From: Flavobacteriales bacterium | GTDB lineage: Bacteria > Bacteroidota > Bacteroidia > Flavobacteriales_D > Sanyastnellaceae | Direction: 5' to 3' | DNA: 64,000 nucleotides | Assembly (NCBI GenBank): GCA_015665315.1 | Contig: JADFAK010000058.1 | Location: 1-64,000 of the forward strand | Part shown: in pieces, positions 4,274 through 33,077 of the stretch | Layout: each line of letters begins with the position of its first letter | Position numbering within the stretch: position 1 is the first letter of the stretch | Made by a program: the position numbers and the translations under genes | Notes under the pieces: model-generated | What the model was told of the DNA's origin: nothing | What the model saw: only the letters and a program-made list of their open reading frames with translations | Database searches by the model: none

Positions 4274-6139
4274 TTATTCTACAACAAGAAGTGTGCTTTT
4301 TTGAATACCTGCTTCACTTGAAAACTGCAGCGTGTACATTCCGCGAGCAAGGGTCCTAGGCAGTTGAATATCAGTCGAGTTCTTTCCCTGATGCCAAGCT
4401 TGCTCGTACACCAAACTGCCCTGCAAATCATATATAAAAATAGTCTTTGGAGCAGTTGAAAGGCTCGTGCGCACGGTAAAACTACCCTTGTTTGGCATCG
4501 GGTAAACGGTGAATAAATTGTCGGCATTCAAATGCAAAATACCACTTGAAAAACCTTGAACTAGATGGTGCTGCGTGTCGATTTCCTCCAATAAGAAGGT
4601 CTCCGGCACGCCTCCTGGCCAATGTACGACCAAGGAATCAACCTCTTCGAGTGTGCCCAAGCCAAAATGCAATCGACTTGATTCCTGCGACGCATGGCAA
4701 CCCCCTCCTCCGTTCAATTCACGCAGGAATATACGATCACCCACATAAAGCTCCACTTGCGTTCCAAAAGCATCTCGGTTGCAAAGAACTCCTTCCAAGG
4801 TTATGTCCAACCAATGATTTTCGGTTCCTTGATTTTCAAACAACTTTACCCGTAAGTTCTCGGGTACCCCGGGGTTTTGCAGATTGACAACAACAATGTC
4901 CAATTGTCCGTCCAAATTAAAGTCTCCATAGGCACAACCTCGCCCCATCTGGACATCGGCCAATCCATTGGCGGGAGCGACATTGGTAAACGTGCCGTCG
5001 CCATTGTTGTGGTAGTAGAGGTTGGGATCTTCCACGTGGTTGTCTATGAAATCAACCGTTGGAATATGTCCGTTGGTGACAAACAAGTCCAAGTAGGTAT
5101 CATTGTCCAAATCGGCGAAAAATGTTCCCCAACTCGTATGCAAGAGTCCATCCGATGAATCATTGATTACCCCCGTCTCAAGCGCTACGTCTTCAAACAC
5201 ACCGTCCGCCTGGTTCAATAGTACATTGGCGCCTAGATTCGTAATGTAGTAATCCAAATCTTGGTCCTCGTCGTAGTCGCCAATGGCCACGCCCATGCCG
5301 TACAGACCAATATTGGCACCCGTGACAGGTGCGACGTCGTCCATGGAGAAATCTGGATAATCGTTGTTGTACAGCCTGTTCGGAATGATAAACTCGCCAA
5401 AATCATTGGCTACCATGAGATCGCTATCTCCGTCTCGGTCGTAATCGGTCGCACTCATGGCGAGGGCACACCCGGCGTTGTTTATTCCCAAATCCTCAGC
5501 CATGTGGCTAAAAGTAAGGTCGCCGTTGTTGAGGTAGAAGAAATCCTCAAAGCATTCGTGATCAAAACCCATAATCACCCCGTCCTCCTCGATGAAACTA
5601 GGGTTCTCGACATAATTGCCCACGTATAGATCCAGAAAACCGTCTTGGTTGATGTCGATGAAACTGGCAGACAAGCTAAAAACAGAATCGGCTAGTCCAG
5701 CTTCAAGCGTAATATCGGTAAACGTCTCGTCGCCGTTATTGCGAAAAAGGTAATTGCTTGCATACCCCGGGGCTATCACCGCACGCCACGTGGTCACAAA
5801 AACATCGCGGTCGCCGTCGTTATCAATGTCGCCAGTTACAACTCCTGTGGTGTTTTTGTCGCCCGTAAGTAGCAATCCGGCCGATTCGGTGACGTTTTCA
5901 AATGAGTCGTTGCCCAAATTCTTGAACAAGGCATCTTCGTCCAAACAACCCGCGAAATAGATGTCTTCGAGTCCGTCGTTGTTGAAGTCAAACACGGCAA
6001 CACCACCTCCCATAAAACTGGAAGGGTGGGGCAGAAAATCTATTCCCGAGGACAGACTGACCTCCTCAAATGTTTGGCCGAAAGCTGTAACCTGGAGGAT
6101 GATTGCAATGCATAAAGCAAATAACCTTGTATTTCGCAT
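4274..6139 (-). CDS. CRTAC1-family FG-GAP/UnbV repeat protein, T9SS type A cargo (paralogue)
   Basis: This 621-residue secreted protein has a signal peptide (about 1-22, ending TAFGQ), FG-GAP/VCBS repeats to about residue 430 (FDFNNDGLEDIYF, DYDRDGDSDLMVAND), an ASPIC/UnbV domain (about 440-525; LVVHWPGG) and a T9SS type A domain in the last 80 residues (YPMPNKGSF, RGMYTLQFSS). It aligns along its length with the downstream gene 2142-4145, for example LMVANDFG versus LMFANDFG, so the pair arose by tandem duplication. The 128 bp between them has no visible terminator. Predicted cell-surface protein; ligand unknown. Confidence 0.9.
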   Translation of the reverse strand: MRNTRLFALCIAIILQVTAFGQTFEEVSLSSGIDFLPHPSSFMGGGVAVFDFNNDGLEDIYFAGCLDEDALFKNLGNDSFENVTESAGLLLTGDKNTTGVVTGDIDNDGDRDVFVTTWRAVIAPGYASNYLFRNNGDETFTDITLEAGLADSVFSLSASFIDINQDGFLDLYVGNYVENPSFIEEDGVIMGFDHECFEDFFYLNNGDLTFSHMAEDLGINNAGCALAMSATDYDRDGDSDLMVANDFGEFIIPNRLYNNDYPDFSMDDVAPVTGANIGLYGMGVAIGDYDEDQDLDYYITNLGANVLLNQADGVFEDVALETGVINDSSDGLLHTSWGTFFADLDNDTYLDLFVTNGHIPTVDFIDNHVEDPNLYYHNNGDGTFTNVAPANGLADVQMGRGCAYGDFNLDGQLDIVVVNLQNPGVPENLRVKLFENQGTENHWLDITLEGVLCNRDAFGTQVELYVGDRIFLRELNGGGGCHASQESSRLHFGLGTLEEVDSLVVHWPGGVPETFLLEEIDTQHHLVQGFSSGILHLNADNLFTVYPMPNKGSFTVRTSLSTAPKTIFIYDLQGSLVYEQAWHQGKNSTDIQLPRTLARGMYTLQFSSEAGIQKSTLLVVE

Positions 6140-15305: not shown

Positions 15306-15866
15306 TTAAAACAATAAAGGCAGGATGAAATAAGTCATGATCAATCCGCCTGCAAAAAAGCCAACCACGGCAATCAAGGAAGGAACTTGCAAGTCGCTTA
15401 ATCCGCTTATTGCGTGGCCTGAAGTACATCCTCCCGCATACCGCGCGCCGAAGCCGACGAGGAAACCACCTAGCAGCAAAATGGCCAATCCGGGGAGAGA
15501 CATCACTTTTTCCATGCTAAAAATCTCCTTGGGGAGAAAGGTGTCGCCTACATTTTCAAATCCCAATTCTTGCAGACTTTCGACCGTATCGGTGGCTAAA
15601 ACCATGGGTTCAGGATTTTGAAGAAACAGTGTCGTGATCAATCCGCCCAGCATGGCGCCCAACACAAAAACGATGTTCCACATCTGACCTTTCCAGTCAA
15701 AGGCGAAAAAATCAGAAGCTTTGTCGGCACCCGCCATCGTACACATCGTCCGCAAGTTGGCCGAAACACCGAAGTTCTTGGCGAAATAGAGGAGTAAAAA
15801 CATGGTGAGTGTAATGAGCGGACCGGCCACATACCAGGGCCAGGGTTGTTGTATGAATTCTATCAT
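15306..15866 (-). CDS. YeeE/YedE-family permease subunit (N-terminal half)
   Basis: This 186-residue inner-membrane protein has about four hydrophobic segments and the family signature GFGARYAGGCTSGHAISGL (Cys147). A second Cys (Cys42, RTMCTMAGA) is also characteristic. In the YeeE/TsuA family such cysteines line the thiosulfate path. It pairs with the separate half at 13445-13858. It starts 14 bp after the UspA-type gene and its stop lies 1 bp from the porin start, which indicates tight co-translation. Transport of thiosulfate or another reduced sulfur species is inferred from family. Confidence 0.87.
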   Translation of the reverse strand: MIEFIQQPWPWYVAGPLITLTMFLLLYFAKNFGVSANLRTMCTMAGADKASDFFAFDWKGQMWNIVFVLGAMLGGLITTLFLQNPEPMVLATDTVESLQELGFENVGDTFLPKEIFSMEKVMSLPGLAILLLGGFLVGFGARYAGGCTSGHAISGLSDLQVPSLIAVVGFFAGGLIMTYFILPLLF

Positions 15867-16797: not shown

Positions 16798-17421
16798 TCA
16801 GCGCGATAAGAGTTTATTGAGCTTGAACATTACCTCCGTCCTGTTTTTGACATCGAGTTTATCGTAGATCCGTACGAGGTGTGTTTTTATGGTGTTGACC
16901 GAAAGGAAGACACTCTCGCTTATTTCCTTGTTGGTTTTGCCTTGTCGCAGCAGGTTTAAAATTTCGAATTCCCTTTCCGACAGGGCGTTGGGAACATGTT
17001 GGTTGATGTTCTCGATGGTTAGTTCGGTTCCTCGCGGACGGTTATTCATGTGGTTGAACAGGGCAATTTCAAGTGAGGTGAGCAAGTCATTTTCGTCAAA
17101 AGGCTTGAGCAAGTATCCAGCTGGGCGCGTTTCCTTTACTCTTTCGATGGTACCACGATCGGAATGGGAGGTGAGAAAAACAAAGGGAATGGCGTACTTC
17201 GAATTGATCTCGTGCGCCACGGCGATACCGTCAATATCAGTTCCCAAGGTGATATCCAGGAGAACAGCGTCTGGTAGATTTGCTTTCAACATTTCCAGGG
17301 CCTGCTCACCATCATAAGCGATGCCTGTGACGGTAAAATCCATGGATGACAAGTGGCCTGCAATATCCTCGGCCACCAATGGCTCATCCTCAACGATTAG
17401 AATCTTTATCTTCTCTTTCAT
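16798..17421 (-). CDS. Response regulator, receiver plus LuxR-type HTH
   Basis: This 207-residue NarL/FixJ-type regulator has a receiver domain with acidic pocket E11/D12, phospho-acceptor D56 (VLLDITLG), T84 and K106 (YLLKPF). A LuxR-type helix-turn-helix follows (LSEREFEILNLLRQGKTNKEISESVFLSVNTIKTHLVRIYDKL). Its ATG overlaps the TGA of the upstream kinase gene as ATGA, so the pair is translationally coupled. It is the natural candidate to bind the TTCACCC-N4-GGGTGAA palindromes upstream of its own operon and of the surface-protein gene (inference). Confidence 0.93.
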   Translation of the reverse strand: MKEKIKILIVEDEPLVAEDIAGHLSSMDFTVTGIAYDGEQALEMLKANLPDAVLLDITLGTDIDGIAVAHEINSKYAIPFVFLTSHSDRGTIERVKETRPAGYLLKPFDENDLLTSLEIALFNHMNNRPRGTELTIENINQHVPNALSEREFEILNLLRQGKTNKEISESVFLSVNTIKTHLVRIYDKLDVKNRTEVMFKLNKLLSR

Positions 17422-19328
17422 GCAGCTTTGAATTTTTTAACCCGAAGTTTCGTCTGCGTTCCATGATCACTTTTCACTTCAAAAGTCGCGTCGAGTTTAT
17501 CGGAAAAAGCACGGATCATTTTAAGTCCGAAACTCGACTCATCGAGTGAATTAAAATCGATCCCAACGCCATCATCAATGACCTCCATTTCGAGTACGTC
17601 TTCTACTTTTTTCAACTTCACTTCCAAGCGGCCCGTTTCCTGTTCCTCGAATGCGTATTTCAAGGCATTGGAAATCAGTTCGTTTAAAATCAATCCCAGG
17701 GGAATTATGGTGTCCACATCAAGCGCAATGTCATCGATATCCGTCGTAAACGATATTTGATTCTCGTCGATTTTGTATGAATTAAACAGACTTTCAGACA
17801 GCTTGACGATGTAGGATTTGACATCAATATTCGTGAGGTTTTCTTCGCGGTACAAATCTTGGTGAATCAGAGCCATAGACTTGACGCGGTTGCGGCTTTC
17901 GTTGACGGCTTCAAGTGCTTTTTTGTCGACGATGCCACGGCTTTGAATGCTCAGCAAACTGGACACTACCTGCAGATTGTTTTTTACGCGGTGATGAATT
18001 TCCCGCAATAGAATTTCTTTTTCGGAGAGCGACTGTTCGATGATCTCTTTTTGCTTTCCAAGTACCCGGTTGCTCTTCACTTTCACCCAAACGGTATATG
18101 CAAGCGCGATGACCAAGATCAAACCAAAACCAATTCCCCATTGAAACAGGCGCTGCTGCCTTTCTTTGTCGGCCAATTTCAACTGCGAAATCTCAAGCTC
18201 CTTTTCACGCTCCTTGGCATTGTAGGCCTCCTGCATTTTTTCCATTTCCTCTACCCGCACGACTGAGGTTTGCTCCCTAGAAATTTCCTCGTGCTCACGG
18301 TAGTACTTGCTAGCTTCCTCGAAATTTTTCAAGGCATAATAGCTGTCGGCCAGAAGAATGGTGAGTCCGTTTAGGACCTCTTTTCGATCGGTTTGACGCA
18401 CAATTTGGGTCGACTCTAGCAAGAAAGGCAAGGCTTCCCGCGGTTTTCCAAGCTCCAACTTCACACGACCCATGTACGATAGAAACTCGGGTCTTTCCGT
18501 TGTTTCGTGCATGAGTTCTTTCTTTTCCAAGGCGGCCAATAATAATTTTTCAGCCTCCGGCAAATGACCCAACTTGTAATGTGCAACACCCAGTGAGGCT
18601 TGGCAGCTTACCACTTCTGATTCCAGTCCCAATTTGGTATTTAAATCGAGTGCTTTTTGAATGTACAAAACACTGTTGTGCTCGTCTTCTAAATAGGAAT
18701 AGGCCAATCCCATATTGTGGTAGATCTTTGCCAAACCCAATTCGTCGCCGAGCTCAAGTTTTATCACCTCTGATTTCTTGTATATATCGATGGCCTCTTG
18801 GTACCTCGACTGCATGCGGTATATCACCCCGATATTATTGATCGTCTTCGAGGCAGAATAAGAATCACCAACTTTTTCCCAGTGATCCATCACATCCAAG
18901 TACCATTTTAGGGCCGAATTGGCATCTCCGGCGAAATAGTAGGACACCCCTATGGAATTCATGGTATTGCCAATCCATATCTCGTCATTTTCCTCGCGAA
19001 ACATTTCCAGGGCAATCAACTGTTGCTGGACGCATGAATCGGCTTTTCCGGCCAAGTCGAGGGCAATTCCCAGCACGTAGTGGGCTCTTGCTTTTCCATG
19101 ATGATGATTCAAACGCTCGGCCAAATCAACTGTCTGCCGGCCCACTTCAATTCCCCTGGAGTCGCCAGCCTGGTTGTAGCTCGCCGCAAGTGTATGGAGG
19201 TTCCACATCTGGACTGTGTCGGCCTTTCCTTCGGCAATTACTTGAACCAGACTGTCCAAATCCTGACCTGTCCCGAGACTCGGGATAAGAAAAAACAAAC
19301 AAGCGATATAGAAATTTCGTTGCAGCAT
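17418..19328 (-). CDS. TPR-containing sensor histidine kinase (HisKA_2 family)
   Basis: This 636-residue kinase has a signal peptide (about 1-21), a periplasmic array of TPR repeats (about 30-370; for example SKTINNIGVIYRMQSRYQEAIDIYKKSE and AKIYHNMGLAYSYL), one membrane segment near 394-416, then a HisKA_2 dimerisation domain with REIHHRVKNNLQVVSSLLSIQS. The ATPase domain has LNELISNALKYAFEE and DDGVGI. It is a class known to pair with LuxR-type regulators; its partner overlaps it by 4 bp. The TPR region probably senses a protein or peptide in the periplasm (inference). Confidence 0.92.
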   Translation of the reverse strand: MLQRNFYIACLFFLIPSLGTGQDLDSLVQVIAEGKADTVQMWNLHTLAASYNQAGDSRGIEVGRQTVDLAERLNHHHGKARAHYVLGIALDLAGKADSCVQQQLIALEMFREENDEIWIGNTMNSIGVSYYFAGDANSALKWYLDVMDHWEKVGDSYSASKTINNIGVIYRMQSRYQEAIDIYKKSEVIKLELGDELGLAKIYHNMGLAYSYLEDEHNSVLYIQKALDLNTKLGLESEVVSCQASLGVAHYKLGHLPEAEKLLLAALEKKELMHETTERPEFLSYMGRVKLELGKPREALPFLLESTQIVRQTDRKEVLNGLTILLADSYYALKNFEEASKYYREHEEISREQTSVVRVEEMEKMQEAYNAKEREKELEISQLKLADKERQQRLFQWGIGFGLILVIALAYTVWVKVKSNRVLGKQKEIIEQSLSEKEILLREIHHRVKNNLQVVSSLLSIQSRGIVDKKALEAVNESRNRVKSMALIHQDLYREENLTNIDVKSYIVKLSESLFNSYKIDENQISFTTDIDDIALDVDTIIPLGLILNELISNALKYAFEEQETGRLEVKLKKVEDVLEMEVIDDGVGIDFNSLDESSFGLKMIRAFSDKLDATFEVKSDHGTQTKLRVKKFKAA

Positions 19329-19724: not shown

Positions 19725-22700
19725 GTGAGTAAACTCGTTAGTATGGTATCTGCCCTTATCCATTATTCACGAAAAGCCTTTGCTATTGCGCTTTTCGGAC
19801 TTTTCTGTTTTGCCTCATCTGCTCAATTCGACACTGAGTTTTGGATGCCCCCCATTTGGAATTCTCAAAACAATCTGCAAAACAATCCTTCGGAATTATT
19901 CATCTCGACGCCCTATCCTACTTCGGTTGATGTCCATATAGAAACTCCTGATGGAGTGACTTTTGTTTTGGACACAACGGTTATTTCAGGTGCCCCTTTG
20001 CAAGTTGTCTTGACGCCAAGTCTTGGGCAAACTACCCTATACAACACAGCTATTACGGACAATGGTTTCATTGTCACGTCGAGTAAACCCATTCAATGCG
20101 TCCATAAAGTTTCAGGTCAAAACAACCAGACCTTGGTTACCTTGAAAGGTCCGAATGGTTTGGGACAAGATTTTTATTGCGGTAGCCAAGTGCGAAACCA
20201 AAATGCTACCTATGGCCCAGAAGAGCATCACTTTATTTCGGTGATGGCAAGTGCCAACAATACGACAGTTACTATTGAAAGTCCGTTCAACCTGTACAAT
20301 GGAGGAGGCACATTACCCAACCCCTATACCTTTACTCTCGATAAACATGAATGCTACTTAGTACGCGGAAACGGACCTATGCAACACGTTGCAGGTGCCC
20401 ATGTGACTTCCGATAAGGATATTACGGTAATCTCTGGTTCGACTCACACACGTATTGCAGGTGGTGGAGCAGCCGATGGAGGTACCGATGAGCTTGTTCC
20501 TGTGGAACTAATGGGTACTCAATTTGTCATTCAAAAAGGAGACAATGGCACACCCTTCGATTACACAATCATCGTCGCTACCGAAGATGACACAGATATT
20601 TTCGTGGACGGAAATGCCACTCCCGTAGCCAATATTGACGCTGGAGAATACTACGACCATACGACCACCGGTTCATTCGGAGATGCCCATTCTTTTCAAA
20701 CGAGCAAAGTAAGCTATTGCTACCATGTCACGGGAGCTTCCCAAGACGATGAGGTAGGTATGTCGGCCATTCCACAAATAAACTGCACCGGAAGTCGATA
20801 CATCGAATTTTCAAAATTCACGACCAATACACAGTTCCAAATGATGAATGTCATTTGTCCGCCAGATGCCGAATCAACCATGGAACTGAACAACTTGCCT
20901 TATCAATCGGTTACAGACGTGATCTACGGCCCCGTTCCAGGATTGCCAGGTTGGGTAGCCATTACTTTTCCGGAAACCTCTTTGGCGGCCAATAACATTG
21001 TGACTTCAGAAGGCTTCTTCCATGCCGGATTTTTAACCGGCGCTGGTTCTACCGGAACCTACGGCTTCCTTTCTGGATTTAATGACGCTTTTGAGTTTAT
21101 TGACCCGAATAACGGTCTGCCCACTACAGTTTACATTGCCGACACCTTGTGCAATGGAGAAACCATCGATCATTGTTTGCAAGTGTATTCCTGTGGAGGA
21201 GACCACAATATTATCGACTTCGAAGGCAATGATGGAACGGTTGTCATAACACCACCAACTTCTCCCTTTGACACCTGCTTTTCGTATACAGCTCCCTTTA
21301 ATTATGCCGGTCTGGACACCATCACCTTCACTGTCGACAATTCCTTCGGCTTCATGGGCACCATCGATGTGGTCTTCATGGTTGAAAATGTGAATACACC
21401 TATCGACGCTGGACCCATTCAAGAACTTTGCTCCGAGACTACCGCAACTTTGGAAGCTATCAACCCCGATCCTTGGGTAGATGGGTATTGGACAGTACTG
21501 GCAGGTGGTGCGACGGTCACCCCCCTAGACTCCCCAATCGCCAACGTCACCAACCTCTCACTGGGAACCAATACATTCCTGTGGACCCAAGAATACAGTT
21601 GTGGAACCAACCTTGACATTACCCAAATTATCGTGTACGACGGTACGGCGCCTCCAGCAAATGCTGGTCCAGACATCGATCTCTGCTCAAACGATAATAC
21701 CTACAACATGCAAGCCAACGATCCCCAGTTCACCGCAACAGGTACCTGGGAAATTGAATTTGGTAATGCTACTATTTGGAATATCAACGACCCCAATGCA
21801 CTTGTTACCAATATTGGTATCGGAGAAAATTTATTCGTGTGGAATATTGACAACGGACCATGCGCTGGAGCCGCTTCGGCCGATTCCATGTATATATATG
21901 TATTCGACCAGTTCCATCCGACTCCGAATGTCGGACTAGACCAAGAATTTTGTTCAGACGCATTCACTTCAACGACTGTTTCGGTGAGCCCCGCCATTGC
22001 ACCTGCTGTCGGACAATGGGTTGTCGTTTCTGGTACGGCAACAATAAGCGACCCATTCGCAACCAACCCAACGATATCGGGCTGCCCTGTGGGTGTACAC
22101 GAAATTGCATGGGTGATCGACAACGGACCATGCGGTGAGCTGTCCGACGCTTTAACTATTACGATCTACGACAGCGGAATAGCTGCTCCAAATGCTGGGC
22201 CAAATGCCGAGTACTGTACGCCAAATACAAGTCATACCATGGCGGCGGTAGAGCCTGGCGGACCAGGAATAGGAACGTGGACTTTGGTCTCTGGGGCAGG
22301 TGTTATCGTCTCTCCAAACAACCCGCTTTCTCAAATCAACAACCTGGGACTAGGTGAAAACGTATTTCATTGGACCATCGACAACGGTCCTTGTGATGAC
22401 ACAGGCGAGTTTGATGCTGTTTCGATCTTTGTTTACGATGGCAGTCAGCCTCTCGCTGATGCCGGCGAACCGCAAGAATTTTGTGCCAATGGTTTTACCA
22501 ACGCACAACTTTCGGGAAGCGCAATCATCTTCCCGGGAAGTGGAACGTGGACTGTCGTCTCTGGAACAGGAAGCTTCTCCGATATAAACGATCCCAATGC
22601 GACCGTTTCCGGACTGTCAGTTGGCTCAAATATCCTGCAGTGGACCGTCGGAAACGGCCCCTGTAATTTCCCCACTTTCGACACGGTTGAAATTGTCCTT

Positions 22701-25700
22701 TTCGACGATGCTCAAGCTCCCGCAGATGCTGGTCCCGATGTGTCATTCTGTACGCCAATTTCAACCTATACCATGCAAGCCAGTTCACCTACCGCACCAT
22801 CGGAAGGAGAGTGGTCTGTAATTACTGGCCTAGCCACGATAAGCGATATCAACGACCCCAATGCCAATATCTCAGGATTGGGAGTCGGAGAAAATACATT
22901 TAGGTGGACCTACGTCAACGGACCTTGCCCAGGCAGTGCCAACTTCGATGAGGTGTCGATTTTCATTTTTGACGAAAATGCACCCGTGGCAAATGCTGGT
23001 CCCGACCAAGAGTTTTGTTCCGATCCAGCTATTCCCGTCAACGTTTTCCTCGACGCCAACGATGCCATATTCCCAGGCGCTGGAACATGGGTTCAAATAC
23101 AAGGTACAGGTGTAATTGTCGACGCCAACGATCCCAACACTGAAGTACTCGTGCTCGGAGAAGGGGAGAATATTTTCGAATGGACGATCGACAATGGTCC
23201 GTGCCCTCCAGGAGTTTCTACCGATACGGTTTCAATCTTTGTTTATCCATGGAACCAAGCCGTGGCCAACGCAGGCCCCGATCAAGAAGTTTGTTCCGAT
23301 GATCCCTCGGCCATCCTTGCCGCCAATACAGTGGTTTTCCCAGGATCAGGATCGTGGTCGGTTATTACAGGTAGCGGAAGCTTCCTAGATGCGTCCGATC
23401 CTAATACGACCGTTTCAGGTTTATCGGTTGGAATCAACGTCCTCCAATGGACTGTCGACAACGGTGCTTGCGACCCTCAGTTCACGAATGATCAAGTAAC
23501 TATTCTTGTTTTCGATGCCAGTCTGGCCTTTGCCGATGCCGGAGAAGACCAAATAATTTGCTCAAGCCTCGGAAGCGTCGACATGGATGCCAATACACCC
23601 GTATTCCCTGCCGAAGGAGTGTGGACAGTGACCGCAGGATCTGGTGATTTTAGCGATGACTCCAACCCCAATGCAGAAGTTTCTAACCTGTCTGTTGGTA
23701 CCAATACGTTTACCTGGACAGTGAACAACGGCCCATGTTCTGGCTTCACAACCGATGAGGTCACTGTCATTGTTTACGACGAAAACTCACCCGCTGCCAA
23801 CGCAGGTCCGAATCAACAGATTTGTACGCCTACAACTTCCGTCAACTTGGCAGCCAACTCGGCCATAGCGCCAGGAACAGGAACGTGGACGCTTTTCTCA
23901 GGAACAGGAAATATTTCAAATGCCAACGATCCAAATACCTTGGTAACTGGCTTGGGAATTGGTGAAAACGTGTTCCAGTGGACAATCAATAACTCCCCTT
24001 GCTCACCAGCCGTGACTATCGATTTTGTATCCATCTTCGTTTTTGATGGCTCAGCGACAAGCGCAAATGCGGGGGCAGATCAAGAATTCTGTACTCCTAC
24101 TGCTTCAACAACACTCAATGGAAATGCAGCCGTATTCCCAGCAACGGGATCGTGGACGCTTATCAGTGGGGCGGGGACAATTGTTTCGCCCAACTCGGCA
24201 TCTTCTCAAGTGACTGGATTGCAAGTTGGAGAAAACGTGTTTCAGTGGACTTTGAATTCAGCTCCTTGTGTTGAGTCTACAAGCTCCGATCAAGTCTCGA
24301 TCTTCATCTACGATTCTATGCAAATGGATGCGGATGCTGGACCAGATCAAGAATTTTGCTCGGATGTGACAACGGCCACCATGGCTGGAAATAGTGTCAC
24401 CTTCCCAGCAGTTGGAACGTGGACTTTGGTTTCTGGATCTGGGACAATTACATCGCCCAACGATCCAAACACGGGAATTACCGATTTGACGATTGGAACG
24501 CATGTATTCGCCTGGACGATCGACAACGGTCCGTGCAGCGCGCCGACAACATCCGAAGTCACCATTCTTATTTACAACGAAACAGCACCCGACGCAAGCG
24601 CTGGAGCCGATCAAGAAATTTGTACTCCTTCAACGTCCGTGACGATGGCGGCAAGTGCTCCTGAATCACCCGGAATTGGAACCTGGTCGCTTGTCAGTGG
24701 CTCCGGAACTATTGCCAGCGTCAACAACCCGAATACAACCATCAACGGCTTGGGCGTGGGCGAAAACATCTTCCATTGGACCATCAACAATGGTTCGTGC
24801 TCCGGAGGTGAAACCTTTGACGAGGTAAGCATTTTTGTTTACTTCAACGGACAAGCAAATGCCAATGCCGGCCCAGATCAAAACTTGTGTACACCGCAAC
24901 TTTCCACTTTCCTTGCGGCCAACTCTGTGACTTTCCCTGCAACGGGAACATGGACCTTATCAAGTGGTTCTGGAACAATAACCGACCCAAATGACCCGAA
25001 TTCAGAGGTGACTGGTTTGGCCATTGGCGAAAACATTTTTGAGTGGACTATTCTCAACGGACCATGCGCAAATGCTGTCACTTCCGACTTTGTTTCAATA
25101 TTCGTATTCGACGGCGGAGCACCACAAGCCAATGCAGGTGTCGACCAAGAATTATGTTCGCCCACAACAACAACTTTCATGGCTGCCGACGGACCAGTCC
25201 CTCCAGGTGAAGGAACATGGACGCTCGTAAGTGGTTCTGGTTCGATAACCGATCCGAATGACCCCGCAACGGAGATTACCAATTTGGCCATTGGAGTCAA
25301 TACCTTCCTATGGACTTTGGATTATTCGACATGTGGCACACAGGCCGACGAGGTGAATATCATTGTTTATGATAGTACTGTTCCCGCTGCATTTGCTGGC
25401 GATGACCAAGAGCTTTGTGCTCCGATAAATTCAACCAGCATGAATGCCGATGCAGTTGCGAGTCCCGGCTATGGAACGTGGCAACTCGTAAGTGGAAGCG
25501 GTACTTTTATCGACGCCAACGACCCGAATACGGTCGTAGAGAACCTCACTGTTGGAGAAAATATATTCACGTGGACAGTTTACAACGGACCTTGTCTGTT
25601 GGATCCCGAAACAGTTGATACAGTTAGTATATTCATTTTTGATGATGGTCAGCTTCCAGCAAATGCCGGGGCAGATCAAGAGATTTGTACGCCTACTACC

Positions 25701-28700
25701 TCAACTTTCTTGCAGGGAAGTCCAGTCATATTCCCAGCCGAAGGTGAGTGGATTCTTGTTTCAGGAGTCGGTACCATCGTCGATGCCAATGATCCTCTGA
25801 CTGAAGTAACTGGCCTTGGAGTTGGTGAAAACGTCTTTCAATGGTCTGTTACCAATGGTTCGTGCGCCAGCCCTGACACCTCTGATTTGGTGAGCATCTT
25901 TGTATTCGACCAAACCCAGGCAGTGGCCAATGCAGGTCCTGACCAAGAATTGTGTACGCCGGTCAATTCGATTGTACTCGCTGGTAATGCCATTACCTTC
26001 CCAGCAGTGGGTGTGTGGACGCTCATTTCTGGTGCCGGTACTATCCTTGACCCCAACAATCCGAACGCAACAGTGAACGCTTTGGCAGTAGGAGAAAATG
26101 TGTTCCAATGGACAGTAGACAACGGACCGTGTGGCCAGCCTACTTCGGACCAAGTTTCAATCTTCATTTACAATCAGTTCAACGAAGATGCCGATGCCGG
26201 TGCCGATCAAGAATTGTGTTCTCCTGAAGATGTTACCAATCTGCAAGGTAACCTGCCAATTTTTCCTTCATTCGGAGAATGGACCCTTTTCCAAGGTACA
26301 GGAGTCATTCAAGATATCAACGATCCAAATACAGAAGTATCTGGGTTGACAATCGGAGAAAACATCTTCGTTTGGTCGGTTGACAACGGACCATGTGCCA
26401 ACGGCCTCTCGACCGATACTGTTTCTGTATTCGTGTTCGACGAAGATGCGGCCCTCGCCTTTGCAGGTGATGACCAAGAATTCTGCAGTCCGACCGACAA
26501 TGCCTTCCTCAATGCGACGGCACCCATATTCCCGTCATCTGGCTCTTGGGTAGTCATTTCTGGTACGGGAACGGTTGTAGATCCAAGCGACCCGAATTCT
26601 GAAATAACTGGACTAAGCCTTGGAAATAACGTGGTGCAGTGGACAGTTTACAATGGACCATGTAGCTCAAGCAATTCTTCTGACTCGGTTTCCATCTTCA
26701 TTTTCGATGAAACCCAGGCAGATGCGAATGCTGGTGTAGATCAGGAACTTTGCACACCGCAAACAACCACCTTGCTCAATGGAAATGCAGCTGTATTCCC
26801 AGCGACTGGTGAGTGGACTTTGGCCTCTGGAACTGCAACGATACTCAACCCTGCCAATCCAAATACGCAAGTGTTGGATCTAGGGATAGGAGACAACGTT
26901 TTCGTCTGGACAATACTAAACGGACCTTGTCTCAACGGTATGACTTCCGACACCGTAATCGTGTCTGTATTCGACCAAGATTTGATCGATGCCGATGCCG
27001 GTCCTGATCAAGAGTGGTGTTTACCAAATAACTTTGCGACCCTCCAAGGAAACGACTTGGTAGTTCCTGCAACAGGAATGTGGACGCAAACACAAGGTAC
27101 AGGAAGTATCCTCGATCCGACTAGCTCGATTACGGCGGTAGTCGGACTAGGAGTCGGAGAAAACATATTCGAATGGGCAGTGAACAACGGACCTTGTGGT
27201 TCAAGTACGGATGAAATATCAATCTTCATCTACGACCCAACTGCACCAGTTGCCGATGCAGGTCCAGACCAGGAGTTCTGTACTCCGATAAGTACCACAA
27301 CGATGGCTGCAAATACTCCTGGAGATCCAGGCGTTGGAACATGGACGCTTGTAACCGGCAACGGAACGATCAATTCACCTAACAATCCACAAACCGCGAT
27401 TTCTGGTTTGACTATCGGTGAGAATATTTTCAGTTGGACGATTTACAATGGGCCATGCGCCGAACCAACATTTGACCTCGTGTCTATATTTATTTTTGAT
27501 GAAAATGCACCAGAAGCTGATGCAGGCGACGACATGGAAATATGCCTCCCGCTTGAAAGTGTAAATATGGATGCCAGTGCGGCTATATTCCCAGCTCAAG
27601 GCACATGGACAACCATCGCAGGAACTGGAACCGTCGATGACGTGAACGACGAAAACACCTTGATTTCAGGTTTGAGTTTGGGTACAAATACCTTTGTGTG
27701 GTCAATCGACAACCAACCTTGTCCTGACGGAATTACAGCTGATACTGTCAATGTACTTGTATTCGAAGAAGACATCGCACCAATCAACGCTGGACCAGAT
27801 CAATTCTTCTGTACTCCTTTGACAACCGTTGTCATGGCTGCAGATCCACTGAGCGATCCAAATACTGGATTCTGGACCGTGGCCGATGGTACAGGCGTGT
27901 TTGGCGATGCTACTGACCCAGGAACTATTGTAAGCGGACTTACCGTCGGAATCAATCAGTATGTATGGAACGTGTACAACGGACCGTGCAATATGGGGAT
28001 GTACACCGATACAATTGACGTCTACATTTACGACGAAGCACATCCTCCAGCCTCAGCTGGTTTGGACCAAGAGCTTTGTTTGCCAACCAATAGCACCGAC
28101 CTAGATGGAAACTTACCAATTGTTCCTGCAATCGGAACATGGACCATCATTGAAGGAAGCGCGACCATCGCTGATGTGAACGATCCTGACACCGATATTA
28201 CTGATCTGGAGCTCGGTATAAACACATTCGTATGGACAATTGACAATGGTCCATGTGAGAATACGATGACGGCCGATACGGTATCTGTCATTGTCTTCGA
28301 AGAGGATGCTTTGCTCGCCTTTGCGGGTGACGACATAGAAATCTGCACACCAGAATCGTGTGTAACTCTCGATGCTACCCCTCCTTCGGTTCCAACGACT
28401 GGAACGTGGACATGGGTTTCAGGAAGTGGAACGATAAGCGATGTGAATGATCCAAATGCGCAAGTTTGTGCCCTACCTGTTGGTCAACACATCCTGCAGT
28501 GGAGCATCTACAACGGACCATGTAACAACAACAACTCTTTTGATTTTGTAGAAATTGAGGTGTTCGATGGAACTGCTCCCCCCGCTTTCGCTGGCGACGA
28601 TCAAGAACTTTGTTGGCCTACAGACGCTACAGTCTTGACTGCCGATGTTCCAGTCTTCCCTGCTTTTGGAACGTGGGATTTATTGGACGGTTCGGGATCG

Positions 28701-29933
28701 ATTTCAGATTTGAATGATCCAAACGCAGATTTCACTGAGCTTTCAATCGGTACCAGCACCCTTACATGGTCGGTTTACAACGGACCTTGTAACGAGCTTA
28801 CGGTAGATACGGTAATCGTTGAGGTTTTCAACCCCGATTCACCGGATGCTGATGCTGGCGAAGACCAATGGTTCTGTACTCCTTTTGGAGGTACAACGCT
28901 CGACGGAAATGCTCCTGTGCCTCCTTCGATTGGAGAATGGACTTTGATTAGTGGTGCTGGCGATATTTCAGACCCTTCAGTCAATAATACGTCGGTCGGA
29001 AATCTTGGCCTAGGCGAGAATATATTCGTCTGGTCGGTCTACAACGGCGCTTGTCCAAATTCACAAACGTCGGATACCGTAAGTGTTTTTGTAAACGACT
29101 TATCCGTGTCACAAGCCGATGCCGGTGCCGATACCTTCTTCTGTGGTGTTCTCGACTCCTTGATGATGGACGGTAGCGAGACAATTGGAAACACGGCCTT
29201 TGGAGTTTGGTCGACGATCCAAGGAGGTGGTGATTTTGCCAACCTTGGCAACGAGCACACGATGGTTTATGACATTCCTTTGGGAGTAAATGAATTCGTC
29301 TGGACTGTTGACAACGGCGCTTGTGGCATTTCACAAGACACCGTACAAGTTGTTATTTACGATCCAAACCTGGCACTTGCTTTCGCAGGGTATGACGAGG
29401 AAATCTGCCAAGATGAATTCATTGAGTTCAACTTAGAAGCCAATCCAGTCGACTGGCCAGCAACGGCCTCGTGGGAAATACTGGAAGGTGATATTGAAAT
29501 CAGCGATCTCTTAGATCCGAACGCTACCGTGCTTGAACTAGGTGAAATCCTGGAACCGCTGACAACCATAACGAACATGCTCGTTTGGACAGTGGACAAC
29601 GGTATTTGCGGTACAACTTCAGATACCTTGATCTATATTCTTGAGGACTGTTTAACAATCGAAGTACCGGATGCATTCTCACCAAACGGTGATGGAATAA
29701 ACGATGTATTCGAGATCCCGAATTTGTTCAAGTATCCTGAAAATTCAATAAAAATCTTCAATCGCTGGGGAATGCAGGTGTACGAAGCTGCGCCGTATTT
29801 AGAGAATTGGGATGGAAGATCAACCCACGGCTCAACTATCGGAGAGGAACTTCCGGTATCTACTTATTACTATATCCTCGATTTGGGTGATGGTTCGGAG
29901 CCATTGGCCGGTTTCATTTACCTAAAACGATAG
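19725..29933 (+). CDS. Giant SprB-like surface adhesin with 31 repeats, T9SS type B cargo
   Basis: This protein of 3402 residues starts at a GTG at 19725; an ATG at 19743 (MVSALIHYSRKAF) is equally possible and gives a more typical signal peptide, cleaved near SSAQ. Residues ~35-470 resemble the IgGFc-binding N-terminal domain (SKPIQCVHK, VISGSTHTRIAGG). One cadherin/Ig-like domain follows (~475-557). Residues ~558-3305 are 31 Ig-like repeats of ~88 residues, consensus A(D/N)AG-DQE-C(S/T) ... GTWTLVSG-GTI-DPNDPNT-V-GL-(V/I)GEN-F-WT-DNGPC ... V-IF(V/I)(F/Y)D, most with two Cys. The last ~90 residues are a gliding-motility-associated type B domain (AFSPNGDGINDVFEIPN, IFNRWGMQVYE). The genes downstream are its likely secretion partners. 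Probable role: surface adhesion or gliding. Confidence 0.9.
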   Translation: MSKLVSMVSALIHYSRKAFAIALFGLFCFASSAQFDTEFWMPPIWNSQNNLQNNPSELFISTPYPTSVDVHIETPDGVTFVLDTTVISGAPLQVVLTPSLGQTTLYNTAITDNGFIVTSSKPIQCVHKVSGQNNQTLVTLKGPNGLGQDFYCGSQVRNQNATYGPEEHHFISVMASANNTTVTIESPFNLYNGGGTLPNPYTFTLDKHECYLVRGNGPMQHVAGAHVTSDKDITVISGSTHTRIAGGGAADGGTDELVPVELMGTQFVIQKGDNGTPFDYTIIVATEDDTDIFVDGNATPVANIDAGEYYDHTTTGSFGDAHSFQTSKVSYCYHVTGASQDDEVGMSAIPQINCTGSRYIEFSKFTTNTQFQMMNVICPPDAESTMELNNLPYQSVTDVIYGPVPGLPGWVAITFPETSLAANNIVTSEGFFHAGFLTGAGSTGTYGFLSGFNDAFEFIDPNNGLPTTVYIADTLCNGETIDHCLQVYSCGGDHNIIDFEGNDGTVVITPPTSPFDTCFSYTAPFNYAGLDTITFTVDNSFGFMGTIDVVFMVENVNTPIDAGPIQELCSETTATLEAINPDPWVDGYWTVLAGGATVTPLDSPIANVTNLSLGTNTFLWTQEYSCGTNLDITQIIVYDGTAPPANAGPDIDLCSNDNTYNMQANDPQFTATGTWEIEFGNATIWNINDPNALVTNIGIGENLFVWNIDNGPCAGAASADSMYIYVFDQFHPTPNVGLDQEFCSDAFTSTTVSVSPAIAPAVGQWVVVSGTATISDPFATNPTISGCPVGVHEIAWVIDNGPCGELSDALTITIYDSGIAAPNAGPNAEYCTPNTSHTMAAVEPGGPGIGTWTLVSGAGVIVSPNNPLSQINNLGLGENVFHWTIDNGPCDDTGEFDAVSIFVYDGSQPLADAGEPQEFCANGFTNAQLSGSAIIFPGSGTWTVVSGTGSFSDINDPNATVSGLSVGSNILQWTVGNGPCNFPTFDTVEIVLFDDAQAPADAGPDVSFCTPISTYTMQASSPTAPSEGEWSVITGLATISDINDPNANISGLGVGENTFRWTYVNGPCPGSANFDEVSIFIFDENAPVANAGPDQEFCSDPAIPVNVFLDANDAIFPGAGTWVQIQGTGVIVDANDPNTEVLVLGEGENIFEWTIDNGPCPPGVSTDTVSIFVYPWNQAVANAGPDQEVCSDDPSAILAANTVVFPGSGSWSVITGSGSFLDASDPNTTVSGLSVGINVLQWTVDNGACDPQFTNDQVTILVFDASLAFADAGEDQIICSSLGSVDMDANTPVFPAEGVWTVTAGSGDFSDDSNPNAEVSNLSVGTNTFTWTVNNGPCSGFTTDEVTVIVYDENSPAANAGPNQQICTPTTSVNLAANSAIAPGTGTWTLFSGTGNISNANDPNTLVTGLGIGENVFQWTINNSPCSPAVTIDFVSIFVFDGSATSANAGADQEFCTPTASTTLNGNAAVFPATGSWTLISGAGTIVSPNSASSQVTGLQVGENVFQWTLNSAPCVESTSSDQVSIFIYDSMQMDADAGPDQEFCSDVTTATMAGNSVTFPAVGTWTLVSGSGTITSPNDPNTGITDLTIGTHVFAWTIDNGPCSAPTTSEVTILIYNETAPDASAGADQEICTPSTSVTMAASAPESPGIGTWSLVSGSGTIASVNNPNTTINGLGVGENIFHWTINNGSCSGGETFDEVSIFVYFNGQANANAGPDQNLCTPQLSTFLAANSVTFPATGTWTLSSGSGTITDPNDPNSEVTGLAIGENIFEWTILNGPCANAVTSDFVSIFVFDGGAPQANAGVDQELCSPTTTTFMAADGPVPPGEGTWTLVSGSGSITDPNDPATEITNLAIGVNTFLWTLDYSTCGTQADEVNIIVYDSTVPAAFAGDDQELCAPINSTSMNADAVASPGYGTWQLVSGSGTFIDANDPNTVVENLTVGENIFTWTVYNGPCLLDPETVDTVSIFIFDDGQLPANAGADQEICTPTTSTFLQGSPVIFPAEGEWILVSGVGTIVDANDPLTEVTGLGVGENVFQWSVTNGSCASPDTSDLVSIFVFDQTQAVANAGPDQELCTPVNSIVLAGNAITFPAVGVWTLISGAGTILDPNNPNATVNALAVGENVFQWTVDNGPCGQPTSDQVSIFIYNQFNEDADAGADQELCSPEDVTNLQGNLPIFPSFGEWTLFQGTGVIQDINDPNTEVSGLTIGENIFVWSVDNGPCANGLSTDTVSVFVFDEDAALAFAGDDQEFCSPTDNAFLNATAPIFPSSGSWVVISGTGTVVDPSDPNSEITGLSLGNNVVQWTVYNGPCSSSNSSDSVSIFIFDETQADANAGVDQELCTPQTTTLLNGNAAVFPATGEWTLASGTATILNPANPNTQVLDLGIGDNVFVWTILNGPCLNGMTSDTVIVSVFDQDLIDADAGPDQEWCLPNNFATLQGNDLVVPATGMWTQTQGTGSILDPTSSITAVVGLGVGENIFEWAVNNGPCGSSTDEISIFIYDPTAPVADAGPDQEFCTPISTTTMAANTPGDPGVGTWTLVTGNGTINSPNNPQTAISGLTIGENIFSWTIYNGPCAEPTFDLVSIFIFDENAPEADAGDDMEICLPLESVNMDASAAIFPAQGTWTTIAGTGTVDDVNDENTLISGLSLGTNTFVWSIDNQPCPDGITADTVNVLVFEEDIAPINAGPDQFFCTPLTTVVMAADPLSDPNTGFWTVADGTGVFGDATDPGTIVSGLTVGINQYVWNVYNGPCNMGMYTDTIDVYIYDEAHPPASAGLDQELCLPTNSTDLDGNLPIVPAIGTWTIIEGSATIADVNDPDTDITDLELGINTFVWTIDNGPCENTMTADTVSVIVFEEDALLAFAGDDIEICTPESCVTLDATPPSVPTTGTWTWVSGSGTISDVNDPNAQVCALPVGQHILQWSIYNGPCNNNNSFDFVEIEVFDGTAPPAFAGDDQELCWPTDATVLTADVPVFPAFGTWDLLDGSGSISDLNDPNADFTELSIGTSTLTWSVYNGPCNELTVDTVIVEVFNPDSPDADAGEDQWFCTPFGGTTLDGNAPVPPSIGEWTLISGAGDISDPSVNNTSVGNLGLGENIFVWSVYNGACPNSQTSDTVSVFVNDLSVSQADAGADTFFCGVLDSLMMDGSETIGNTAFGVWSTIQGGGDFANLGNEHTMVYDIPLGVNEFVWTVDNGACGISQDTVQVVIYDPNLALAFAGYDEEICQDEFIEFNLEANPVDWPATASWEILEGDIEISDLLDPNATVLELGEILEPLTTITNMLVWTVDNGICGTTSDTLIYILEDCLTIEVPDAFSPNGDGINDVFEIPNLFKYPENSIKIFNRWGMQVYEAAPYLENWDGRSTHGSTIGEELPVSTYYYILDLGDGSEPLAGFIYLKR
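21402..29660 (+). repeat. 31 tandem Ig-like coding repeats, about 265 bp each
   Basis: I counted 31 units in the adhesin, each starting near AxAG and ending in an acidic (F/Y)D strand. Most have one Cys near the start and one in NGPC, likely a disulfide within each unit. Units are similar in protein but diverged in DNA. Some are close pairs: units 11 and 21 share NGNAAVFPATG with nearly the same codons. Unit 31 is the most degenerate and leads into the sorting domain. Confidence 0.9.
24054..24069 (+). repeat. Exact 16-bp dispersed repeat, copy 1
   Basis: GCGACAAGCGCAAATG inside the adhesin gene, read as part of ATSANAG. Identical copies are at 45969 and 49925. Confidence 0.8.
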
Positions 29934-29952
29934 TCTGACTTAACACTTGATT

Positions 29953-30882
29953 ATGATGAAAAAAGTCAAAATAATATGTTTGCTATTCCTTGTTCTGGCA
30001 TCCGCCAAATGGGGTTACGCACAACAGGACCCCATGTTCAGCCAGTATATGTTCAACACCTTGAGCATCAATCCTGCCTACGCTGGAAGTGCCGACTTAC
30101 TCACGGTGAACGCTATTTACCGACACCAATGGGTGAAGTTTGATGGTGCTCCAGTGACGCAGACCATTACGGCGCACATGCCATTGAAAAAGGAAAGTTT
30201 GAGCTTTGGCGGTTCTATCATCAACGATAGCCACGGAGCGGTAAAACAAACTGGTATTTATGGCGACTTGTCCTACCGTATTTTTATGGACAAAAGCCGA
30301 CTAGCCTTTGGACTAAAAGGTGGCTTGAACTTGTTCTCCGCCAACTTGCAAGACCTCAACCCGGTTGAAGACGATGATCCTACTTTTCAGGCCAACGTTA
30401 AAAACAAGGCTTTGCCAAATTTCGGTGCCGGAATTCTGTGGTATAGTCAAAAGTACTATCTCGGACTTTCCACACCAAAACTGCTCACGAATAAGCTCAT
30501 CAACGGAGACCTTCCCGACTTGTCGCAAAACAAAGAAAGAAGACACTTTTTCCTAATTGGTGGTCTGGTGATTGACGTCAACAACTATTTGAAATTCAAG
30601 CCTACTTTCCTCGTGAAAGCAGTAAGTGGTGCTCCCATATCCTTTGACGTGACAGCCAACTTCCTTTTGTACGAGAAGTTCTGGGTTGGAGCCATGTACC
30701 GATTCCAAGACGCAGCCGGACTTCTGCTACAATACGAAGTGAACAACAAGATCAAAGTGGGCTATGCCTACGATTATACTTTATCAGATATTGGTCAGTA
30801 CAGCAACGGCTCGCATGAAATCATGCTTGGAGTTGATTTTGGCCGCAAAGTTGGAGGTGATATTTCTCCGCGTTACTTTTAA
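29953..30882 (+). CDS. PorP/SprF family type IX secretion membrane protein
   Basis: This 309-residue protein starts at the ATG at 29953 or 29956, 20 bp after the adhesin stop. Signal peptide ends GYAQ. The mature part opens with the family signature QDPMFSQYMFNTLSINPAYAGSAD and continues as an outer-membrane barrel (IYRHQWVKFDGAP, SLSFGGSIINDSHG, WVGAMYRFQDAAGLLLQYE, YAYDYTLSDIGQYSNGSHEIMLG). PorP/SprF proteins work with T9SS to bring a specific type B cargo such as SprB to the surface. Position directly after such a cargo makes the adhesin its likely client. Confidence 0.95.
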   Translation: MMKKVKIICLLFLVLASAKWGYAQQDPMFSQYMFNTLSINPAYAGSADLLTVNAIYRHQWVKFDGAPVTQTITAHMPLKKESLSFGGSIINDSHGAVKQTGIYGDLSYRIFMDKSRLAFGLKGGLNLFSANLQDLNPVEDDDPTFQANVKNKALPNFGAGILWYSQKYYLGLSTPKLLTNKLINGDLPDLSQNKERRHFFLIGGLVIDVNNYLKFKPTFLVKAVSGAPISFDVTANFLLYEKFWVGAMYRFQDAAGLLLQYEVNNKIKVGYAYDYTLSDIGQYSNGSHEIMLGVDFGRKVGGDISPRYF

Positions 30883-30902: not shown

Positions 30903-33077
30903 ATGACACGATCCACCCTCAACTATACTCGACTAATTTTAGCGGCTGTCATGCTTGTTGTGAGCGGTTGCAATACGCCGAAGAGCAAGTTTAAATTGGC
31001 CGATAGGTATTTCAACGAATTCGAATTCACCAAGGCGGCTGAGATTTATGAAGATGTCTTGGAAAAGTATCCAGAAGATCCTCATGCTCTGCGACAAGCT
31101 GCCGAAGCCAGGGAAAATCTCGGAGACTACAAAAAAGCCGAAGAACATCTTGCTGTCTTGGCCAAAACGGAGGCTGTCAACGCCGCCGACTTATTGGAGT
31201 ACGCCGAAGTGCTCAAGATGAATGGCAAGTACGACAAGGCAACGAATGTCTATAGAACTTATGCCGAGCTTAAACCAGAAGACACCTCAGTAAGGTCCTA
31301 CATCGATACTCCCGACTGGTTGCATATCATGACCCGCGACTCATCGAATTATACCATCACAAATTCAGCGGTAAATACGGCTGGTTCCGACTTCGCTCCT
31401 ACTTTCATCGGGAATGAGATTATTTTCTCCTCTTCGCGGGCCGAAGGAAAAGGAAAACGAAATATATACGCGTGGAATGATCAGTCTTACCTGAATCTAT
31501 ACAGCGCACAACTGGGTCCGGATAGCACCTTGGATTCACCTACTGTATTGAAGAACAAGGCCAATAGTCGATTCCATGAAGGTACAGCGACTTATGACGC
31601 CATTAACAAGCGACTTTATTTCACAAGGAATTATTTCGACAAAGGCAAACAGCAAAAAAGCGACGACGGTAAACTGAACTTGGCCATCTTTTATGCCTCA
31701 TACGAAAATGGCGAAGTGGGCAAAATCAAAGAATTCAAATACAACAACGCCGAGCACTCTGTGGGTCACCCGACTTTGAGTGCCGACGGCAATACGATGT
31801 ATTATGTATCTGACAACCCAAAGGGAAAAGGAGGAGCGGATATCTACAAGGTCGTTCGAGAGACTACAGGCTGGTCTAAACCAGAATTACTCGGAGACGA
31901 AATCAATACTCTCGGAAATGAAATGTTCCCCTTTCTCGTCAACGACTCGACTTTGCTTTTTTCGAGTGATCGACTACCTGGTATGGGCGGACTAGACATT
32001 TTCGAGGCCGATCTATCTAGCGATCCTATTCAAGTTCGAAACTTGGGCTATCCGATAAATTCACACTACGACGATTTTGGGGTTTCGATGTACGGGCACC
32101 GCATGAGTGGTTACCTTTCAAGTAACCGACCACAAGGAAAAGGTGACGACGATATTTACCACTTCAGTGTCACGCGTCCTTCGACGGTGATTATTAGCGG
32201 TGATGTGGTCGATGTAAATACGTTAAAACCTCTACCATTTGTAACCATCGCCTTGAAGAACCCAGATGGGACTACCCTTGAAGTTGCCAAAACAGATGAG
32301 CAAGGGCATTACGAATTCGAGACAGACCACATGGAGGTTATTTCTCTGCGTGCTACCAAAGAGGGTTACTTTCCTGTAAATATGGACGTGCATACCAATG
32401 AATATTCAAAATTCGTGGATGAAGCCGATATCGTTATGGTGCCTTACGACCACTTGGCCGAAGGAACCGTTCTTTATGCTGAAAACGACCTCCCCGCCGA
32501 AGATGCGCGAATCACGCTCCTCGATAGTGAAGAGAAAATTCGAGATCAGGTTGTTACTGGCCAAGATGGCAAATATGCCTTCGGACTTATGTCTGATGAA
32601 GAGTATACTATTGAATGCTCAAAATTTGGATTTCCTGATCAAGAAGTAAACATCAACACAGGTGAAATTACCGATTCCTTGATTTATGCCGACTTCCGAC
32701 TGTTTAAACTAGAAACGGGTGCGATTGTCCGGCTGGATAATATCTACTACGATTACAATAGCGCCGATATTCGACCCGATGCCGCTCGTGAATTGGACAA
32801 GCTGCTTAAAATCATGGAAGATAATCCGACCATGAAGATCGAATTAGGGTCACACACCGACTCAAGAGGACCGGGCGGATATAACCTTACACTCTCGCAG
32901 AAAAGGGCCAAATCGGCCGCAAACTACCTCATTGGGAAAGGAATTGCAGAAAGCCGTGTCAAGAACAAAGGATACGGTGAGAAGAAGATCTTGAACAAAT
33001 GTCGCGACGGAGTTGAATGCAGCGAAGCCGAACATCAATTGAACCGACGGACTGAATTCAAAATTCTGGATATTTAG
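30903..33077 (+). CDS. OmpA-family lipoprotein with TPR and PD40 propeller (PorE-like architecture)
   Basis: This 724-residue lipoprotein has a lipobox VSGC with Cys23 as lipidation site. Domains in order: TPR repeats (~30-125), a WD40-like PD40 propeller (~150-430; PTLSADGNTMYYVSD, LLFSSDRLPGMGGLDIFEA, GYLSSNRPQGKGDDDIY), a carboxypeptidase-regulatory-like domain (~432-520; ISGDVVDVNTLKPLPFV), a second such fold (~522-600), and a C-terminal OmpA domain (~610-724; NIYYDYNSADIRPDA, HTDSRGPGGYNLTLSQKRAKSAANYL). That order matches T9SS PorE-type proteins, which anchor the machine to peptidoglycan. It closes the adhesin-PorP operon, 20 bp after porP. Confidence 0.93.
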   Translation: MTRSTLNYTRLILAAVMLVVSGCNTPKSKFKLADRYFNEFEFTKAAEIYEDVLEKYPEDPHALRQAAEARENLGDYKKAEEHLAVLAKTEAVNAADLLEYAEVLKMNGKYDKATNVYRTYAELKPEDTSVRSYIDTPDWLHIMTRDSSNYTITNSAVNTAGSDFAPTFIGNEIIFSSSRAEGKGKRNIYAWNDQSYLNLYSAQLGPDSTLDSPTVLKNKANSRFHEGTATYDAINKRLYFTRNYFDKGKQQKSDDGKLNLAIFYASYENGEVGKIKEFKYNNAEHSVGHPTLSADGNTMYYVSDNPKGKGGADIYKVVRETTGWSKPELLGDEINTLGNEMFPFLVNDSTLLFSSDRLPGMGGLDIFEADLSSDPIQVRNLGYPINSHYDDFGVSMYGHRMSGYLSSNRPQGKGDDDIYHFSVTRPSTVIISGDVVDVNTLKPLPFVTIALKNPDGTTLEVAKTDEQGHYEFETDHMEVISLRATKEGYFPVNMDVHTNEYSKFVDEADIVMVPYDHLAEGTVLYAENDLPAEDARITLLDSEEKIRDQVVTGQDGKYAFGLMSDEEYTIECSKFGFPDQEVNINTGEITDSLIYADFRLFKLETGAIVRLDNIYYDYNSADIRPDAARELDKLLKIMEDNPTMKIELGSHTDSRGPGGYNLTLSQKRAKSAANYLIGKGIAESRVKNKGYGEKKILNKCRDGVECSEAEHQLNRRTEFKILDI

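Follow-up and report, generated by a model that had tools for sequence, protein, structure and literature searches.

A probably static T9SS type B fibre, likely of fixed length, built from 31 PKD-type units in two orders of Bacteroidia

The 64,000-nucleotide stretch of DNA analysed here, referred to as the window, contains a gene for a 3402-residue protein in which a head is followed by 31 similar repeats. The locus raises the question of what kind of fibre this protein forms, how the fibre is held at the cell, and why its repeats should number 31. The original prediction, made from the letters of the window, described an adhesin with an IgGFc-binding-like head, 31 Ig-like repeats and a type B sorting domain, and pointed to SprB of gliding flavobacteria as a protein of comparable design. 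Our results suggest that the gene probably encodes a T9SS type B fibre whose length is fixed, a rod of PKD-type units that is anchored statically by a PorP carrier together with a PorE-like protein. The fibre gene and the two genes that follow it are organized as listed.

19725..29933, + strand: fibre gene, 3402 aa; GTG start, the ATG at 19743 being likelier
19743..19820, + strand: signal-peptide-like stretch (Sec), judged by eye from the sequence
20157..20897, + strand: IgGFc_binding (PF17517) portion of the head, aa 145-391; Pfam E 1.3e-30, 107.1 bits against a cut-off of 25.6
21117..21395, + strand: pre-repeat domain, about aa 465-557, common to the IgGFc-headed and the headless relatives in the same family
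21396..29657, + strand: 31 tandem PKD-type units, aa 558-3311, located with an array-derived profile, Pfam and the structural model
29658..29930, + strand: T9SS type B sorting domain, aa 3312-3402 (PF13585 and TIGR04131)
29947..30882, + strand: PorP/SprF-family outer-membrane carrier (TIGR03519, E 2e-86), mature part without Cys
30903..33077, + strand: PorE-like protein with TPR, PD40 propeller, CarboxypepD_reg and OmpA domain, a putative peptidoglycan anchor

The open frame runs from a GTG without an internal stop. Read by eye, the in-frame ATG at 19743 is the likelier true start, since the orthologue from the same genus has its ATG at the aligned position and the signal-peptide-like stretch comes directly after it. 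Pfam, NCBIfam and the array profile bear out the predicted architecture of one reading frame with an IgGFc-binding-like head, 31 repeats and a type B sorting domain. The head match lies above the Pfam cut-off, and IgGFc_binding is here a Pfam label that does not imply binding of IgG. The sorting domain is matched by PF13585 (CHU_C; E 2e-25) and by TIGR04131 (E 1.9e-15, 56.8 bits against a cut-off of 35); together with the adjoining PorP/SprF gene and the presence of SprA in the genome, where it is split over two contigs, it identifies the protein as a T9SS type B substrate. Of the extended surface fibre described originally, the fibre with a type B T9SS signal stands, and we infer its exposure at the surface from the sorting domain and the operon. 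The list of open reading frames holds none of more than 140 aa on the opposite strand inside the fibre gene.

A TPR/HisKA_2 histidine kinase and a LuxR-type response regulator lie directly upstream in divergent orientation (16798-19328, - strand). Both adjoin the fibre gene in G028 also (55% and 77% identity; genomes are given by G numbers, the window genome being G000), and in G044 a homologue of the regulator lies upstream of the fibre and a weaker kinase match downstream. The pair was not seen at the remaining fibre loci, within the limited flanks available there. Farther upstream, a 186-aa frame at 15306-15866 (- strand) has a partial match to the sulphur-transport family PF04143 and could be a fragment or a half-size member.

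The repeat units are about 89 aa long. Located with the profile derived from the array, units 1-16 start at residues 558, 643, 732, 820, 909, 998, 1087, 1179, 1268, 1356, 1445, 1534, 1622, 1711, 1800 and 1887, and units 17-31 at residues 1977, 2066, 2154, 2243, 2332, 2421, 2508, 2596, 2685, 2774, 2863, 2952, 3040, 3129 and 3217; the spacing of 85-92 aa agrees with the regular boundaries noted originally. The count of 31 was obtained at five score cut-offs and also with a second profile made from the units of another family. K319L-like PKD (PF22352) matches across the array in 10 stretches with an E value of 1.5e-80 (265.7 bits against a cut-off of 27). A Cys pair had been described as kept by most units; the pair is indeed conserved, but "most" was wrong, as it is present in 31 of 31. 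Both Cys columns are invariant over 28 aligned units (units 1, 2 and 31 left out), an invariance which suggests one disulfide per unit. Many units in G030 and G027 (L050 and L051) have 4 or 6 Cys rather than 2, and judging by these sequences extra disulfides may have evolved in that lineage. The units of the window array are about 45% identical among themselves and the longest exact DNA repeat in the array is 19 nt, which together indicate that the array is old and has undergone no recent amplification. Across the array (21396-29657) the similarity between units at lag 3 is slightly raised, as it also is in several 31-unit relatives in the same family (z up to 3.6).

The fold was examined by modelling six tandem units, 14-19 (window 24855-26450), with AF2 on an alignment whose 99 rows are segments of this array and of its orthologues. 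Every unit is all-beta in this model (mean pLDDT 96.1, pTM 0.66), and the units are predicted to be beta sandwiches of the K319L-like PKD kind. Such a structure prediction had been proposed as a check on the Ig-like assignment, which it supports and refines to PKD-type. The top Foldseek match of the model, among 572 PDB matches at E values up to 0.001, is the base of GhpA (E 1.3e-26). By VIA, GhpA aligns over 485 residues with a Z of 16.5 and an rmsd of 11.4, the runner-up being a single PKD domain with a Z of 11.6 over 90 residues. At the sequence level, GhpA 4758-5716 contains 11 stretches that match the unit profile (whole-chain E 1.2e-113), and the last units of the window protein together with its sorting domain align with GhpA 5575-5898. 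In our own reading the latter alignment leaves room for a further unit, so that the GhpA shaft probably has a twelfth unit and about 12 in total. The closest relative by both sequence and fold is GhpA, a protein that was absent from the original prediction.

GhpA of Aureispira sp. CCB-QB1 (PDB 9flp, 9fly and others) resembles the present fibre in its C-terminal shaft, which consists of such PKD-type units, and in its type B sorting domain, which is homologous. It differs in its length of 5898 aa and in the other Ig-like domains ahead of the shaft. GhpA is a heptamer according to PMC13319060. For the head, a phmmer search against PDB chains, GhpA among them, gave no match (best E 0.32). A model of the head has a pLDDT of 87.3 and a beta-rich pre-repeat domain, and its fold matches fall mainly in the pre-repeat domain and unit 1. 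Since the fold matches listed cover model residues 424-611 almost only, we conclude nothing on the fold of the IgGFc part.

This relationship could be taken to mean that the fibre is a grappling hook in the strict sense, a heptamer that catches prey for T6SS killing. The homology of shaft and sorting domain to GhpA would favor such a function, and so would the T6SS sheath gene in the window genome, a TssC-like gene at G000:C54:14919-16184 (PF17541, E 4.6e-70). However, only G000 and G029 among the 15 fibre carriers have a T6SS sheath gene, the head lacks a sequence match to GhpA as to any other PDB chain, and the GhpA shaft has about 12 units where the window fibre has 31. We therefore do not claim predation as a general function, PF17541 being found in 2 of 15 carriers, and we regard the strict hook as improbable. 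A fibre that shares its shaft with GhpA and is statically anchored is the reading we prefer, and the anchoring would depend on the genes downstream.

SprB of Flavobacterium johnsoniae, like the window fibre, is a very long T9SS type B adhesin encoded beside a PorP/SprF-family carrier, and the original prediction had used it as a comparison. If it were also a guide to behavior, the fibre would be a gliding adhesin, linked by PorP to the GldJ/K/N track and moving along the cell. The type B sorting domain and the adjoining PorP/SprF gene are as in SprB, and the genome has a GldJ-like gene as well as SprA. In F. johnsoniae, however, the Cys-X-Cys C-tail of SprF is required for attachment to the track (PMC12635249), and static type B proteins are encoded with a PorE homologue while mobile ones are encoded without it (PMC12618676). 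SprB differs from the window locus in being mobile, in the Cys-X-Cys C-tail of its SprF and in an operon without a PorE-like gene. The sole Cys of the window PorP sits in the signal region. The PorP C-tail is without Cys in 14 of 14 relatives in the same family and in 12 of 14 from the other order described below; one of the remaining two has a Cys 42 residues from the end and the frame of the other is broken there. The Pfam matches to the window protein include no SprB-repeat family.

Homologues of both PorP and the PorE-like protein were present at all 14 loci examined in the same family and all 14 examined in the other order, so that the operon holds a PorE-like protein (TPR, propeller, OmpA) at 28 of 28 loci. 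Type B, PorP-like and PorE-like proteins are likewise found together in PorE-PorP-PG1035 of Porphyromonas gingivalis and in Fjoh_3952-3951-3950, for which static cell-wall anchoring has been proposed; the general proposal is that PorP-PorE anchors non-mobile type B proteins to the cell wall (PMC9143113). The fibres of these sets are not known as 31-unit PKD rods. The PorE-like protein of the window matches the PorE and CHU_0125 models (NF052230 and NF053607) strongly yet under the cut-offs of these two specific NCBIfam models, with 439.8 of 620 bits and 377 of 600, a point of difference from both sets.

We also read 18 PorP/SprF paralogues of the window genome, two of which (C6 and C181) may be open frames other than the PorP frame. 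Two paralogues have two Cys in the C-tail and the rest have one or none. The first of the two, G000:C78 (L063), lies beside a GldJ-like gene, and both it and the second, G000:C17:18934 (L062), are candidate carriers of mobile adhesins. The same genome has 55 type B sorting-domain matches, among them four tandem ORFs about 2 kb apart at G000:C105:4986-11179, three of which are 631-646 aa long. The tail Cys pair thus belongs to other paralogues rather than to the PorP of the fibre. Because this PorP has no tail Cys and a PorE-like gene sits in the operon, the fibre is best read as static. On the same two grounds we rejected SprB-like mobility, which we hold to be very unlikely, and SprB is not supported as a guide to how the fibre behaves.

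A comparison of repeat number between strains had been suggested as a check, and we carried it out across species. The pre-repeat domain was found at 44% identity or more in 16 genomes of the same family (114 searched), and 9 of the 15 countable proteins have exactly 31 units. An IgGFc head 62-78% identical to that of the window accompanies the 31 units in G028, G046, G047, G048, G044 and G016, as in the window itself; G030 and G027 have 31 units without it. The other counts are 41 (G038, G040 and G082), 51 (G039), 61 (G029, as 24 + 37 units on two contigs that share a 25-nt end and are assumed to adjoin) and 17 (G001), the last being the single exception to steps of ten. G004 was uncountable, with at least 14 units before a contig end. 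That G046 (one contig) and G047 (two contigs) both have 31 units is evidence against assembly collapse. Between the window and G028, which belongs to the same genus, unit i is the best match of unit i in 31 of 31 cases, and among the 31-unit relatives farther removed, the match on the diagonal is the best one for 8 to 20 of the 31 units. This conservation of unit number between species is a new point that the original prediction missed. The genus of G038-G040 has a second IgGFc-headed protein, with open frames of 2513, 2237 and 2781 aa.

A class-wide search of 395 genomes with the unit profile gave one further group with equally strong matches, a single genus (family f21) of another order. In a first set, 14 of 14 genomes have exactly 31 units. 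The number was then predicted in writing for a second set of 19 genomes, in which every one of the 18 intact arrays has 31; the remaining array, that of G779, has a broken frame, and its main frame holds 29 units. Two proteins of this set were suspected of truncation, and their ORFs are cut within the head only and have 31 units. In total, 31 units are found in 32 of 32 intact f21 arrays, from 33 of the 45 genomes of the family; the other 12 were left out because their matches were short, cut, weak or absent. Among the first 14, a score cut-off of 0 admits a 32nd match twice, one profile giving it in G604 and the other in G406, and at cut-offs of 5 and above all have 31. The f21 head is unrelated to that of the window, since blastp at E 1e-3 returns heads of the window's own family only. 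Unit-by-unit orthology across the two orders was not found, the diagonal identity between the window and G604 being 0.446 and the off-diagonal identity 0.434. The f21 PorP is 54-59% identical to the window PorP, compared with at most 49% for the paralogues in the window genome, and the f21 sorting domains are 53-67% identical to that of the window, compared with at most 51% for others in the window genome. These identities mark the f21 locus as the same operon, fitted with a different head.

In other families, where most related arrays have units of about 83 aa, the number varies; complete ORFs have, for example, 11, 28, 29, 43 and 48 units, and several further arrays are cut by contig ends. 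These numbers, the approximately 12 units of GhpA and the 17 of G001 show that T9SS arrays do not generally follow steps of ten. In family f15, four genomes have a different array of about 83-aa units (L117, L118, L120 and L130), in which 18 units are detected before a step of 280-677 aa and 3 after it, perhaps another conserved number. In L119 (G541), a protein of 4604 aa, 48 units of the related type follow one another without a gap. Periscope proteins (Aap, SasG and Pls) resemble the window fibre in that a rod of repeats fixes how far an adhesin head stands from the cell, but their repeat number is described as variable, the opposite of what we observe, and their secretion and anchoring are different. 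We found no published report of a fixed unit number, although the paper on ixotrophy may already treat the relatives of GhpA.

How the number changes can be seen in the lineages that depart from 31. On the PorP tree the counts require at least 5 changes, one leading to the 17 of G001 and the others yielding 41, 51 and 61. Duplications of five-unit blocks are visible in two lineages: in G039, units 16-19 match units 21-24 (66-86% identity) and units 26-27 match units 31-32 (75-77%), and in G029 most of units 9-24 are 61-72% identical at lag 5. None of 2000 shuffles reaches the observed lag-5 identity in either G029 contig or in G039, G038 and G040, and the five-unit period is absent within the window array (0.447 at lag 5 compared with a shuffled mean of 0.451). 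The two five-unit steps in G039 imply that a 46-unit intermediate probably existed, which favors five over ten as the size of the basic step. Under step sizes distributed uniformly modulo 10, the probability that all four steps fall on multiples of ten would be 1 in 10,000; this is a post hoc estimate, the count of G029 is uncertain, and the changes may have a common ancestry. Gene conversion was considered as a cause of the fading identity between units and is not separable from saturation.

A simple alternate explanation for the constancy of 31 is that it is a neutral relic, an ancestral number inherited after the units diverged long ago and recombination between them all but ended, the fibre being otherwise as described. 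Units diverged at the DNA level should have their recombination suppressed, and the best match of a unit to another in the same protein averages a nucleotide identity of 0.58 in the window and of 0.61-0.72 in the other arrays compared. The absence of any exact direct repeat longer than 19 nt in the window and the unit-for-unit match of the same-genus orthologues in 31 of 31 positions are also what a relic would predict. We give this explanation serious weight, somewhat short of an even chance. It has difficulty with some f21 arrays in which exact repeats of 25-32 nt survive (G450 has 11 pairs of at least 25 nt) and the unit count is still 31. In addition, relatives in the window's own family did alter the number, so change is possible, and apart from G001 the counted arrays of the group depart from 31 by tens only. 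That selection acts on the unit number has, in our view, somewhat better than an even chance. A stronger form, which we offer tentatively as a minority possibility, is that the array is a protein ruler, kept by selection at exactly 31 units whatever the head and able to lengthen only by blocks of five or ten that preserve its phase (31, 41, 51, 61).

For the statically anchored PKD rod that we favor, the chain would be exported by the SprA translocon, its sorting domain would be held at the outer membrane by PorP, and PorP in turn would be tied to peptidoglycan by the PorE-like protein. If one unit is about 4 nm long, a disulfide-locked rod would keep the head at a set distance of about 120 nm, where it could adhere to a surface, matrix or other cell. 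The fibre would work like the shaft of the GhpA grappling hook, anchored statically and without gliding. Lineages that lengthen it would add blocks of five or ten units. Less certainly, the unit number itself may be selected, with the rod serving as a spacer of set length.

These results place GhpA, from which ixotrophic predators build their grappling hooks, within a larger group of fibres anchored by PorP/PorE. Length variation is standard for the repeat rods of bacterial adhesins, and one number maintained across two orders of Bacteroidia under unrelated heads would show selection on fibre length; the prediction for each new genome is 31 units, or 31 plus tens. If the array is indeed a ruler, a structural period of 5 or 10 domains would be expected in the assembled, possibly heptameric, shaft, and the fibre would be a bacterial counterpart of the super-repeats of titin.
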